Source of the DNA: an uncultured Clostridia bacterium
GTDB taxonomy: Bacteria > Bacillota > Clostridia > Oscillospirales > Ruminococcaceae
Assembly: GCA_947627905.1 (NCBI GenBank)
Contig: CANQXX010000002.1
Location: 1-64,000, forward strand
Direction of reading: 5' to 3'
Length of the DNA: 64,000 nucleotides
The notes under the pieces were generated by a model that made no database searches, was not told the DNA's origin, and saw nothing but the letters and a program-made list of their open reading frames with translations. Of the stretch, positions 18,318-42,170 are shown in pieces. The position numbers and the translations under genes were made by a program. Position 1 is the first letter of the stretch. Every line of letters starts with the position of its first letter.

Positions 18318-18687
18318 ATCAAAATAAAAGAGGTCTAACCTCCGGATCGCCGAATAATATCGGTGATCGGGACGATAGACCTCGTGGTGCCACCCGTTTT
18401 TACGGAATTAAAAAATTCCGCCTCATTGGATACAGACTGATGCGGAACTTCAACATTTTTGTTAAAACAGTTCAAGTACGCCGCTAATGCAGTTATACCC
18501 TATCCACTAACGCAGGAAATCGGCGCGGACTACTTGGGAAATTAATATCACCCGTTTGCCGTTGCTTCTCACAAACCCATTCACAGATACCGTTATGATC
18601 CGCACTCACACCAACGGCGGATTCTCTGATACATCAGCATATCTGCTACTTACTTTTGATCGTCGAATTTAAAAATATTAAATTACG
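18318..18687 (-). promoter_or_regulatory. T-box leader (tryptophan) upstream of trpE
   Basis: The transcript carries the conserved antiterminator element GGGTGGCACCACG (plus-strand 18383-18395). The UGGC bulge is complementary to a tRNA 3' end with discriminator G, as in tRNA-Trp. A competing terminator follows: GAGGTCTA with TAGACCTC (18330-18383), then TTTTATTTT. A large stem I region with an AGAGA-type motif lies near the 5' end. A TGG in its internal loop is the likely specifier, but I cannot fix its position without folding. Uncharged tRNA-Trp should stabilise antitermination and switch on the operon. Confidence 0.93.
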
Positions 18688-24823: not shown

Positions 24824-25039
24824 ATCTTCTAAAATAACCGCCTTGCCGCCATGTGAAGCATAAAACCCGCACTCAGCAGGTGGGCAACAGCCCATCAGTT
24901 TCACGCTCCCTGCGTCCGTTGTTCCCCACATCTAATGGGGCGGGAGGTCTGCAATCCGCTGACGGAGACTGAATCCCTTTATTTATGTGTTGGATTATAA
25001 AATCACACTTTATCGGACAAGGCAGAAATTCATTTTCTG
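24824..25039 (-). ncRNA. ssrS: Probable 6S RNA (SsrS)
   Basis: A stand-alone minus-strand RNA of about 215-245 nt with its own promoter and terminator and no ORF. Its ends close with GCCTTG / CAAGGC. Between them lie two imperfect long arms with GC-rich hairpins (CCCCATTAGATGTGGGG-type, CGTCAGCGG with its partner) flanking a less paired centre, the rod-and-bubble layout of 6S RNA. 6S binds sigma-A RNA polymerase and damps transcription in stationary phase. The identification rests on size, architecture and the independent unit. An Rfam RF00013 search would settle it. Confidence 0.6.
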
Positions 25040-25169: not shown

Positions 25170-25496
25170 TTATTCTTCTTCATCTTCATCGTAAATGTCA
25201 TTAAGACGTTCAAGGAACATATTTCCTATACGTTCATATTCTTCGTCATTGTCGATAGAAACGAGAGTTTCTTCATTGTTTTCGTCATATTCGGATTTGA
25301 GAACTACAAGCTCCGTATCTTCGGCAAGCTGGGCAGCCGGGTCACTGCTATAAGGAACAAGCGCATAATAACGTTCGCCGTCCACGTCCATAGTGTCAAG
25401 AAGTTCAAACTGCTGCTCGACGCCTTCCTCGTCCTCAAGGGTATAGATGTCGGCAAGCATATCCATATCGTCGTTCATATTATTCATATCCGGCAT
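25170..25496 (-). CDS. DUF1292 domain-containing protein
   Basis: A 108-residue very acidic cytosolic protein with the DUF1292 core: DIYTLEDEEGVEQQFELLDTM, ERYYALVPY, ELVVLKSEYDENNEETLVSIDNDEEYERI. The family is widespread in Firmicutes, often near yqgF/ruvX and alaS-type genes, and has no established function. Here ruvX is about 1.2 kb away, in loose keeping with that. An Asp/Met-rich N-terminus and DEDEEE tail flank the domain. AAGGAGG lies before the ATG. Confidence 0.9.
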   Translation of the reverse strand: MPDMNNMNDDMDMLADIYTLEDEEGVEQQFELLDTMDVDGERYYALVPYSSDPAAQLAEDTELVVLKSEYDENNEETLVSIDNDEEYERIGNMFLERLNDIYDEDEEE

Positions 25497-25605: not shown

Positions 25606-25664
25606 TGCACAAATACTGTGGAGTATTTTTATCAAAAAACTATTGACATTGCACAATATCTGTG
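25606..25664 (+). promoter_or_regulatory. Two operator-like dyads at the array promoter
   Basis: TGCACAAATACTGTG (25606-25620) and TGCACAATATCTGTG (25650-25664) are near-identical. Each contains the dyad CACA-N5-TGTG, and they are 44 bp apart, about four helical turns. The second fills the spacer between -35 and -10, an ideal repressor position. The regulator is unknown. Confidence 0.5.
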
Positions 25665-25671
25665 ATATATT
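25643..25671 (+). promoter_or_regulatory. Strong promoter of the tiny-ORF array RNA
   Basis: TTGACA (25643-25648), 17-bp spacer, TATATT (25666-25671) with an extended -10 TGA just before it. The predicted start is near A25678. Confidence 0.85.
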
Positions 25672-25710
25672 ATACTCAAGGACAAAGAAAAGATACAGAG
25701 GTCAAATTAA

Positions 25711-25811
25711 GGAAGCCGGTTTCAGAAGATCGGTTACTGCCGACGATGGTCAGGCACAACCCTTTGACAAGTCTTGTGAAGCTGCTGAGTAGGACGATGT
25801 TCCGAGCTTCC
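25711..25811 (+). ncRNA. Structured domain in the 5' part of the array RNA
   Basis: GGAAGC (25711-25716) can pair with GCTTCC (25806-25811), closing a ~100-nt domain with smaller hairpins inside (TCGG-ttactg-CCGA, ACAAG-tc-TTGT). Just 3' of it, ATCCG, CGGAT and ATCCGTG (25840-25873) are mutually complementary and offer two exclusive pairings, a switch-like layout. Confidence 0.45.
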
Positions 25812-25958
25812 GGATCGTTCCTGTAACTTTAAAGTTCTTTATCCGAAAGAAACGGATCCGATGAAAATCCGTGATTTCCACACGGTACATTCAGTCTGAG
25901 AATGGATCTGACGGGTTCGGAAATCTGTAAATTTTTCTTGGAAAGGGTGGCGAGTCCA

Positions 25959-26027
25959 ATGGAGGATGTAATTGAACAGCAGTTTACTCAGGCAGTCCGC
26001 AGCGACTCGTTTACAGCTTTGCTTTAA
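25959..26027 (+). CDS. 22-codon ORF in the 5' part of the array RNA
   Basis: An ORF of 22 sense codons starting at the ATG inside GAGTCCAATGGAGG, the same context as the downstream repeat copies. GGAAAGGGTGG sits about 8-12 nt upstream as a ribosome site. The peptide (starts MEDVIEQQ, ends SFTALL) is acidic and polar and unlike the basic peptides of the array. It may be the translated founder of the motif, or a leader peptide. No homologue is recognised. Confidence 0.35.
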   Translation: MEDVIEQQFTQAVRSDSFTALL

Positions 26028-26039
26028 GAAAAATTGTGT

Positions 26040-26079
26040 GGGGAGTATAAATGTAAGCGTCTTTAAGACCTCACTCCTG
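26040..26079 (+). promoter_or_regulatory. Hairpin with start-stop codon pair and anti-motif CTCACTCC
   Basis: GGAGT (26042-26046) pairs with ACTCC (26073-26077), enclosing ATG TAA and a small GTCTTTAAGAC hairpin. The 3' arm contains CTCACTCC (26070-26077), the exact reverse complement of the GGAGTGAG element found five times downstream. Extended to CTCACTCCTG it matches the copy at 26612-26621 over 10 nt. Confidence 0.5.
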
Positions 26080-26128
26080 AATTAAGCGATTAGCAATTAA
26101 ATATCTTGAAGTATATAATGATAACGAG

Positions 26129-26171
26129 CCGCAGTTTTAGCAGATCATAGCTGAATTTGCGGTATTTTTAT
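26129..26171 (+). terminator. Internal terminator-like hairpin of the array RNA
   Basis: CCGCAGTTTTAGC and GCTGAATTTGCGG pair at 12 of 13 positions with an 8-nt loop, followed by TATTTTTAT. It could end a ~490-nt RNA, or act conditionally ahead of the array. Confidence 0.6.
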
Positions 26172-26291
26172 ACCCTCAGGCTTGATATACAGTGCATCGA
26201 CGGTCTGCCGCCATGAATGTCCCGAATGGGCTTTACATAAAATGCTGTATGTTTTGATTTGAGGATTTTTTATCTTCATTGTCAGAACGGG

Positions 26292-26307
26292 TCACCAGTA
26301 AGAGGTG
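26292..26307 (+). promoter_or_regulatory. Hairpin masking the ribosome site of the first array ORF
   Basis: TCACC (26292-26296) pairs with GGTGA (26303-26307), hiding the AGAGGTGAT ribosome site 8 nt before ATG 26315. TCACC itself mimics the anti-Shine-Dalgarno end of 16S rRNA. Confidence 0.5.
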
Positions 26308-26314
26308 ATGTCCT

Positions 26315-26356
26315 ATGAGAAAACTTAATATAGGTATCAGATACGTTATGAATTGA
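26315..26356 (+). CDS. Array tiny ORF 1 (13 aa)
   Basis: It encodes MRKLNIGIRYVMN. AGAGGTGAT is an excellent ribosome site 8 nt upstream. The stop is 7 nt before the element GGAGTGAGACCACC. The peptide is basic with alternating hydrophobics. Coding status is inferred from the site and the repeated arrangement only. Confidence 0.4.
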   Translation: MRKLNIGIRYVMN

Positions 26357-26363
26357 TGTGATT

Positions 26364-26377
26364 GGAGTGAGACCACC
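26364..26377 (+). repeat. GGAGTGAG element copy 1 (ACCACC type)
   Basis: GGAGTGAGACCACC, shared exactly with the last copy at 26941. No start codon follows. It marks the left boundary of the array. Confidence 0.65.
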
Positions 26378-26424
26378 TGACAGGTTAATTTCTTCCTGAT
26401 ATTGAATTTTAAGAAGGGATGCAT

Positions 26425-26466
26425 ATGAGGTATTTTGAATATGCGTATCACGATCTGAATATCTGA
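26425..26466 (+). CDS. Array tiny ORF 2 (13 aa)
   Basis: It encodes MRYFEYAYHDLNI, four aromatics in 13 residues. AAGAAGGGAT supplies the ribosome site. The stop is 14 nt before the divergent element AGGTGAGTCC. Confidence 0.38.
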   Translation: MRYFEYAYHDLNI

Positions 26467-26480
26467 ATGAATTTTGAAAG

Positions 26481-26498
26481 AGGTGAGTCCGACAGGAC
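26481..26498 (+). repeat. Divergent GGAGTGAG element copy 2
   Basis: AGGTGAGTCC keeps the GTGAGTCC core. Its GTCC pairs with a nearby GGAC (GTCC-gaca-GGAC, 26487-26498) instead of leading to ATGGCATA. Confidence 0.5.
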
Positions 26499-26570
26499 GT
26501 GCATAACGGTTTTGACCGATACGGAAAAAATCTATCGGGTGTTTCCCGTTAAGAATTGAGTGATCTTCAA

Positions 26571-26606
26571 ATGGTAATGAGAAAGGCTTTTAACAGAAAA
26601 ATCTGA
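26571..26606 (+). CDS. Array tiny ORF 3 (11 aa)
   Basis: It encodes MVMRKAFNRKI (or MRKAFNRKI from the second ATG). The ribosome site is the weakest of the set (GAGTGAT about 10 nt upstream). The stop lies 7 nt before element copy 3. Basic peptide. Confidence 0.33.
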   Translation: MVMRKAFNRKI

Positions 26607-26613
26607 TAAAGCA

Positions 26614-26634
26614 GGAGTGAGTCCAATGGCATAG
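26614..26634 (+). repeat. GGAGTGAG element copy 3 with Met-Ala-stop mini-ORF
   Basis: GGAGTGAGTCCAATGGCATA followed by G. GGAG stands 8 nt before an ATG that reads Met-Ala-stop (TAG). The flanking GGCAT can pair with ATGCC 14 nt downstream. Confidence 0.7.
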
Positions 26635-26687
26635 TTTGCGGCTTCAATGCCTTAATGAATTTACAATTCCAAAAGGAGTCGGTTTAT

Positions 26688-26729
26688 ATGATCTGTTCAA
26701 TAACTGTACTGAAGGAATTTGATTTTTAA
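26688..26729 (+). CDS. Array tiny ORF 4 (13 aa)
   Basis: It encodes MICSITVLKEFDF, the only array peptide with a Cys and the least basic besides ORF 2. AAAAGGAG is 9 nt before the ATG. The TAA stop directly abuts the GGAGTGAG of copy 4, so a terminating ribosome would cover that site. Confidence 0.42.
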   Translation: MICSITVLKEFDF

Positions 26730-26750
26730 GGAGTGAGTCCAATGGCATAG
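26730..26750 (+). repeat. GGAGTGAG element copy 4 with Met-Ala-stop mini-ORF
   Basis: Identical over all 21 bases to copy 3, including the TAG stop, although the flanking sequences differ completely. That points to selection on the element itself. After the TAG the same frame stays open into tiny ORF 5. Confidence 0.7.
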
Positions 26751-26792
26751 TCTTATTCTCTTGATGAATATTTCCGAAGGAGCTGTTGCTTT

Positions 26793-26825
26793 ATGCGCAG
26801 AAAATTTTACAGTAAGAAATATTGA
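26793..26825 (+). CDS. Array tiny ORF 5 (10 aa)
   Basis: It encodes MRRKFYSKKY, strongly cationic (five K/R and three aromatics in ten residues). GAAGGAG is 10 nt upstream. The stop is 7 nt before copy 5. Confidence 0.42.
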   Translation: MRRKFYSKKY

Positions 26826-26832
26826 TTTTATG

Positions 26833-26853
26833 GGAGTGAGTCCAATGGCATAA
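26833..26853 (+). repeat. GGAGTGAG element copy 5 with Met-Ala-stop mini-ORF
   Basis: Matches copies 3 and 4 over 20 bases. The only change turns the stop from TAG to TAA, so the Met-Ala-stop reading is kept while the base is not. Confidence 0.7.
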
Positions 26854-26901
26854 GTACAGATGTTCCGCTTTATCGTTTAATTCTGAAAGGAAGCGGTGTC
26901 T

Positions 26902-26934
26902 ATGAAAAATGTTCGGAGTTATTTGAAAATCTGA
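26902..26934 (+). CDS. Array tiny ORF 6 (10 aa)
   Basis: It encodes MKNVRSYLKI, basic. AAAGGAAG supplies the ribosome site. The stop is 6 nt before the last element. Confidence 0.4.
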   Translation: MKNVRSYLKI

Positions 26935-26940
26935 AAGATC

Positions 26941-26954
26941 GGAGTGAGACCACC
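26941..26954 (+). repeat. GGAGTGAG element copy 6 (ACCACC type)
   Basis: GGAGTGAGACCACC, the same subtype as copy 1, closing the array before the terminator. Confidence 0.65.
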
Positions 26955-27001
26955 AGAACATTTAGTTGTGCTGCAAAGCCATATTTAATTAAAATAGATT
27001 G

Positions 27002-27036
27002 ATCCGCAGGATGTTGCTCCTGCGGATTTTTGATTT
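27002..27036 (+). terminator. Terminator of the array transcript
   Basis: ATCCGCAGG and CCTGCGGAT form a 9-bp stem with an 8-nt loop, followed by TTTTTGATTT. Confidence 0.88.
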
Positions 27037-27050
27037 ATATGCAATTTGTT

Positions 27051-27079
27051 TTGACTATTTCTGCGTTACTGCATATAAT
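27051..27079 (+). promoter_or_regulatory. Promoter of the asparagine synthetase gene
   Basis: TTGACT, 17 bp, TATAAT (27074-27079), start near 27086, then GGAGG before the ATG at 27113. Confidence 0.85.
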
Positions 27080-41995: not shown

Positions 41996-42022
41996 TTTCT
42001 GCCGTACAAATTGAATAATATG

Positions 42023-42150
42023 TTTCAGGGCGAGGTGCAATTCCTCACCGGCGGTAATGGGACGGCAGTCCTTAGTCCGCGAGCGGATAGCGATATCCGC
42101 CGATCTGGTGCGATCCCAGAACCGACGGTACAGTCCGGATGAAAGAAACA
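42023..42150 (+). promoter_or_regulatory. FMN riboswitch
   Basis: All RFN core segments are visible in order: TCAGGGCGAGGTGCAATTCC, CTCACCGGCGGTAATGGG, CAGTCC, CCGCGAGCGG, GATCTGGTGCGATCCCAGA, CCGACGGTACAGTCCGGATG, GAAAGAAA. FMN binding should favour the terminator just downstream and lower expression of the riboflavin transporter. Confidence 0.97.
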
Positions 42151-42170
42151 ACACACATTTCAGTGCATTT

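Follow-up and report, generated by a model that had tools for sequence, protein, structure and literature searches.

A candidate stand-alone RNA with a structured leader and an array of tiny open reading frames in a gut bacterium and its relatives

The window (the whole stretch of DNA analysed, 64,000 nucleotides) carries a stand-alone unit of ∼1.35 kb at 25643–27033, common to its host, a gut bacterium, and to the host's relatives. This candidate RNA begins with a structured leader and continues as an array of tiny ORFs on which, judging from what is conserved, ribosomes would apparently begin and end translation again and again without making a useful protein. A first-pass annotation had described the first part as an unlisted structured RNA of ∼490 nt, complete from promoter to terminator-like hairpin and ending at 26171. 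The promoter, the structured RNA, and the hairpin all hold up, but the end does not: conservation in the ortholog alignment extends from the promoter to a terminator at 27001–27033, and by sequence comparison the 490-nt RNA is real, yet it merely forms the leader of a unit that is longer and apparently translated. This unit is bounded by its own promoter and its own terminator, both recognized as conserved sequence, and its main feature proves to be the ORF and the array elements that the annotation had noticed, which form a series of ORFs of 2 to 26 codons preserved throughout the family. The boundaries and leader elements are as follows.

25643–25671 (+), promoter of the unit, TTGACA-17-TATATT, aligned and conserved in orthologs
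25680–25940 (+), variable 5′ leader with ATCCG/CGGAT segments, partly or wholly absent from several orthologs
25950–26012 (+), ORF-A hairpin, in which GCGAGUC around the start pairs with GACUCGU from 3′ codons of the same ORF; L098, L099, and L102 show compensatory changes
25959–26027 (+), ORF-A, 22 codons (MEDVIEQQFTQAVRSDSFTALL, then stop), first ORF of the unit; internal gap lengths divisible by three in most orthologs
26042–26077 (+), H1 hairpin (GGAGU/ACUCC, covarying inner stem), by covariation
26086–26094 (+), H2 hairpin with a GAUUA loop, strong covariation in orthologs
26128–26169 (+), H3 hairpin with U5 run, attenuator-like, between ORF-A and the array; folding against shuffles, and covariation
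27001–27033 (+), intrinsic terminator of the unit, stem letters differing on both sides among orthologs

Within the leader, it is the 3′ part that keeps its fold. Over 21 sequences, 91.2% of the cells of H1–H3 are paired, against 33–40% after the 3′ partners have been shifted by 1–3 columns, and the covariation score is 0.301 compared with 0.175 in shuffles. The variable 5′ part shows no conserved fold, and the compact fold proposed for the whole 494 nt is only marginal (z −1.9, with 7 of 100 shuffles equally good). The ATCCG/CGGAT segments noted there are present, but their supposed exclusive pairings are not conserved, because 25680–25940 is missing in several orthologs. The 22-codon ORF is where the annotation had placed it, in the GAGTCCAATGG context, and the closed domain of ∼100 nt proves to be the ORF-A domain, with compensatory changes. 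ORF-A is conserved among the loci and nearly always present, with a length of 15–28 codons, and its start codon sits inside a covarying hairpin whose stem reads GAGUC/GACUC or GGCUC in most loci, GAUUC/GAAUC in L098 and L099, and GAGCC/GGCUC in L102. MAFFT misaligns the 3′ arm of this hairpin in the most distant genera, so its pairings are given here by locus. Two pairings between leader and array were rejected. The segment CTCACTCC at 26070, considered as the main partner of the array elements, is the 3′ arm of the local hairpin H1, and pairing of the array GAGUCC with the ORF-A arm fails in L098/L099, where ORF-A uses GAUUC/GAAUC and the array elements remain GAGUCC.

H3 has the form of an intrinsic terminator, a GC-rich hairpin directly followed by a U-run, and its termination activity is a prediction from that form. 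The hairpin proper (26128–26163, then UUUUU) folds far better than shuffles in 21 of 21 orthologs (mean z −3.6), and a T-run lies 3′ of it in all 21 sequences. H3 reads as a terminator or attenuator separating the leader ORF from the array, although comparison of the leaders found no conserved anti-terminator for it. In attenuators of the trp type, a short leader ORF and a terminator-like hairpin control a biosynthetic operon. The unit resembles these in having a short leader ORF in a hairpin and then a terminator-like hairpin with a U-run; it differs in that an array of tiny ORFs follows in place of a biosynthetic operon, no run of regulatory codons is seen in ORF-A, and the gene 3′ of the unit is not conserved as a controlled structural gene would be.

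The annotation had recognized no riboswitch or large RNA here and had suggested an Rfam scan, in which a match to a known family such as ROOL, GOLLD, or raiA would have counted against the proposal. The scan returned no such match: no Rfam 15 family (ROOL, GOLLD, raiA, OLE, and 6S included) reaches its gathering score in the unit or in 18 homologous loci, and at relaxed thresholds the unit region gives nothing relevant, the best sub-threshold match (E 0.25) lying far under its cut-off. Like ROOL, GOLLD, OLE, and raiA, the unit would be a long structured RNA of anaerobic Firmicutes; unlike them, it has no Rfam match, and what is conserved in it is a set of reading frames, not a single large fold.

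Past H3, the array in the window comprises six ORFs of 10–13 codons and three of two codons (ATG-GCA-TAG/TAA), most of them preceded by clear Shine-Dalgarno (SD) sequences, together with SD-like elements that lack a start codon. Micro-ORF peptides are given up to their stops.

26315–26356 (+), micro-ORF B, 13 codons (MRKLNIGIRYVMN), frame conservation
26364–26377 (+), SD-like element without start codon (GGAGTGAGACCACC), motif and 16S-tail pairing
26425–26466 (+), micro-ORF C, 13 codons (MRYFEYAYHDLNI), the sole micro-ORF with a clearly conserved peptide, pN/pS 0.25
26480–26496 (+), SD-like element without start codon (GAGGTGAGTCCGACAGG), motif and 16S-tail pairing
26571–26606 (+), micro-ORF D, 11 codons (MVMRKAFNRKI), frame conservation
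26614–26634 (+), two-codon mini-ORF GGAGTGAGTCCA-ATG-GCA-TAG, SD context
26688–26729 (+), micro-ORF E, 13 codons (MICSITVLKEFDF), frame conservation
26730–26750 (+), two-codon mini-ORF ATG-GCA-TAG, SD context
26793–26825 (+), micro-ORF F, 10 codons (MRRKFYSKKY), frame conservation
26833–26853 (+), two-codon mini-ORF ATG-GCA-TAA, SD context
26902–26934 (+), micro-ORF G, 10 codons (MKNVRSYLKI), frame conservation
26941–26954 (+), last SD-like element without start codon (GGAGTGAGACCACC), motif and 16S-tail pairing

The folded RNA itself could be the working part, the tiny ORFs serving to keep ribosomes on it, either as protection from nucleases or Rho or to hold hairpins open. Its leader structure covaries, the downstream 862 nt that hold the array are also more stably folded than their shuffles (z −3.5, 0 of 20), and translation of a two-codon minigene has been reported to stabilize the txe mRNA (PMC8708949). 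However, the strongly conserved folds are confined to the leader, while the array varies and keeps its start sites and short frames, and we regard this explanation as rather unlikely.

What the array keeps is seen from the sites with the pattern SD-[T/A]CCN-RTG. Among 171 such sites in 32 oriented loci, 110 open ORFs of two (90) or three (20) codons, and one is a bare start-stop. The 90 two-codon ORFs use 30 different combinations of second codon and stop, and one orthologous site encodes MH, MY, MQ, MK, MG, MKG, or MEK, depending on the species. ORFs of three codons or fewer follow 66 of 98 sites inside 18 loci but only 2 of 39 in their flanks, and the antisense strand of these loci has just two sites, both opening longer ORFs. 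The number and spacing of the ORFs are variable, with a spacing of about 50 to 120 nt.

The longer frames are retained in the same manner. Micro-ORFs A–G are open wherever they can be aligned, despite base differences of 3–54%, and in lineages with an alignable orthologous ATG the start and stop persist and the length hardly changes, although some copies are lost (e.g. E in L008 and F in L031). When the observed numbers of substitutions are placed at random, each of ORFs A–G stays open across the lineages compared with a log10 P of −4.7 to −11.8. The peptides are another matter, with pN/pS of 0.57–1.0 for A, B, D, E, F, and G and 0.25 for C alone. Hence the frames appear to be selected while most of the peptide products do not; by this contrast, the act of translation, not its product, appears to be under selection.

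It follows that a polycistronic micropeptide gene, whose products of 10–26 residues function as peptides, is improbable. Its best case is micro-ORF C, which besides its low pN/pS keeps an HDLN-type C terminus across genera and is duplicated in tandem in L040 and L104; ORF-A, too, is nearly always present. The other peptides drift, dipeptides with any second residue are hardly specific products, and the conservation of ORF-A is partly explained by its hairpin. The HDLNI unit of L040 is present as three tandem copies of MITRGFHDLNI (at 776, 911, and 1049), a local unit duplication.

Predicted pairing with the 16S tail points to unusually strong ribosome-binding sites. The tail used is the usual Clostridial sequence and may differ from the host's own, the assembly being without a 16S copy; with it, the array sites average −13.4 kcal/mol, whereas 18 genes of the window have −8.8 (p = 9e-5), and the regions upstream of the mini-ORFs in the 32 loci average −13.0 compared with −5.9 after shuffling. 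Extended SD pairing has been described in Staphylococcus aureus (PMC13009471). A small GGN...N′CC hairpin at the ribosome-binding site is suggestive (Fisher p = 2e-6, on sites that are phylogenetically non-independent), but GGT-TCC sites in other genera contradict it. The start-less elements (GGAGTGAGWCCRCC and GTGAGTCCGACAGG; 26364, 26480, and 26941 in the window, with homologous sites) directly follow micro-ORF stops and pair equally strongly (−13.4 compared with −7.3 shuffled, same tail). They are conserved as well as those with start codons, and initiation does not explain them. The GTG inside GGAGTGAG was rejected as a start codon, being out of frame or missing in several variants. The start-less elements and the conserved peptide of micro-ORF C run against a pure start-stop reading, and at least one product may matter.

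That the ATG-NNN-stop strings are instead an untranslated RNA motif, e.g. a protein-binding hairpin that merely looks like an ORF, we judge very unlikely. The GGAGTGAGTCC core is kept even where the start codon is absent, as such a motif would be, but all three stop codons and many second codons interchange at a constant spacing after the SD, GTG substitutes for ATG at places in L098 and L102, and the gaps in ORF-A are mostly multiples of three.

The unit's surroundings are more constant on its 5′ than on its 3′ side, where asnB (asparagine synthase) follows in the same direction in the window. A long regulatory leader of asnB is scarcely credible despite this arrangement, since between unit and gene stand a strong terminator and, at 27051–27079, another promoter-like site. 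Moreover, the downstream gene is not conserved; of the loci searched, those of the nearest relative (L035/L005) alone have asnB next to the unit. Upstream lie two divergent neighbours.

25170–25496 (−), DUF1292 gene, beside the unit at almost every homologous locus
24831–25031 (−), 6S RNA (RF00013), next neighbour past DUF1292, by Rfam; beside DUF1292 in 9 of 18 homologous loci scanned

The trio of 6S RNA, DUF1292, and array is syntenic across several genera. The 6S RNA shares the conserved locus but is a separate gene beyond DUF1292, with no sequence or structural match to the unit. Elsewhere in the window, a T-box leader upstream of trp-like genes (18365–18672, −) and an FMN riboswitch (42017–42154, +) are ordinary.

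A search of 100 relatives with 25640–27040 matched 20 of 21 genomes of the same genus, the window's own counted, and three other genera of the family. Of 398 family genomes, 23 contain the strict array motif and none its reversed control. A covariance model from homologues, as the annotation had advised, was built on H1–H3 alone, independent of the array motif, and matches 13 of 299 family genomes; loci that it found without an array-motif match (L154, L155, and L156) carry mini-ORF arrays, encoding MDS, MER, MER, MDRL, and MEK in L154 and MA, MA, MAS, MA, and MAIKG in L155. By synteny beside DUF1292 only, 14 of 26 further genera carry leader ORFs or mini-ORFs, and the array was not seen in the other 12 so examined. 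Across the 26, the divergent strand holds 26 ORFs with at most four codons, along with 15 of leader size; the corresponding counts are none and one on the other strand and, in total, five and one in the far flank. One of these loci, L162, has six two-codon ORFs (ME, MD) and one start-stop, mostly at ∼55-nt spacing; in its divergent region, at ∼980–995, one unit reads TCCG-ATT-GGA where its neighbours have ATG, possibly an AUU start or a decayed unit. By these searches the system spans much of the host's family, with recognizable copies in only part of it.

In other families of the order, the strict motif occurs a few times, each time opening an ORF of 2–25 codons. The same SD context opens a two-codon MG or MY ORF in L086, L087, and L089 (∼1513 in the oriented locus), and in L086 the MG minigene is single and, as in axe-txe, has a promoter-like site on one side and a protein gene on the other. 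In L084 and L085, from two other families of the order, GGAGTGAGTCCAATG (1513) opens a 25- or 16-codon ORF shortly past a promoter-like site, possibly a distant version of the leader. Phylum-wide, occurrence is at background (four matches in genomes other than the window's own against six control matches). A viral origin was rejected, with no exact 20-mer match and 29 single 16-mer matches that look like chance.

The closest described systems are two-codon minigenes, in the LEE1/ler leader of EHEC and as mg2 of axe-txe (PMC8708949), which share with the unit an SD followed by AUG, one sense codon, and a stop, present three times in the window and 90 times in the 32 loci. They act in cis and, as we propose for the unit, through translation rather than product; with a strong SD they allow reinitiation without ribosome release, and they are toxic via peptidyl-tRNA release (PMC8708949). 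Those minigenes are single and lie in the leader of a protein gene, whereas here several stand in a row in a separate RNA, kept across genera, with a terminator past the array and no conserved gene downstream. Dual-function and peptide-coding small RNAs (PMC5521070) likewise combine a structured RNA with a small ORF, but the unit has many ORFs, most with unconserved products and many of two codons. In the open-access literature searched, we found neither an array of two-codon ORFs in a separate RNA nor a described RNA of comparable kind.

The simplest reading of the sequence would be that the RNA's job is to be initiated on. We consider the chances about evenly balanced that it is an attenuator-gated stand-alone RNA engaging ribosomes or initiation complexes in futile start-stop cycles. 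A transcript would run from the unit's own promoter to its own terminator, as the conserved sequence predicts, with the leader ORF's start codon held, as covariation indicates, in a hairpin with that ORF's last codons. The attenuator-like hairpin and U-run, a structure supported by covariation, would then act, presumably by termination, so that leader and attenuator decide whether the array is made. Beyond it would come a row of strong ribosome-binding sites, some leading into ORFs of 2–3 codons, some into ORFs of 10–14 codons, and some start-less. Frames, starts, and stops have been retained, whereas second codons and most peptides vary freely, so selection very probably targets the loading of ribosomes and brief start-stop cycles, whatever the product. 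By engaging ribosomes or initiation complexes, the RNA would be a sink or sensor of translation capacity; being initiated on may serve to draw off ribosomes as a sink, to sense the capacity for initiation or termination, or to protect the RNA.

To our knowledge, no two-codon ORFs are known other than isolated curiosities and toxic minigenes. If the reading is true, an RNA that preserves whole rows of them throughout a family would mean that bacteria put futile translation to functional use. Such loci escape gene finders and RNA finders alike, since each seeks only half of the signal. 6S RNA sequesters RNA polymerase, and because the unit adjoins it, a ribosome-directed counterpart is a concrete, testable idea. 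More tentatively, and with a real likelihood of being wrong, we suggest that the unit may represent a new class of RNA that captures and cycles ribosomes, attenuator-gated, with tandem strong sites and 1- to 4-codon ORFs, set family-wide beside 6S RNA and, in the way 6S RNA does with RNA polymerase, adjusting or sensing translation capacity.
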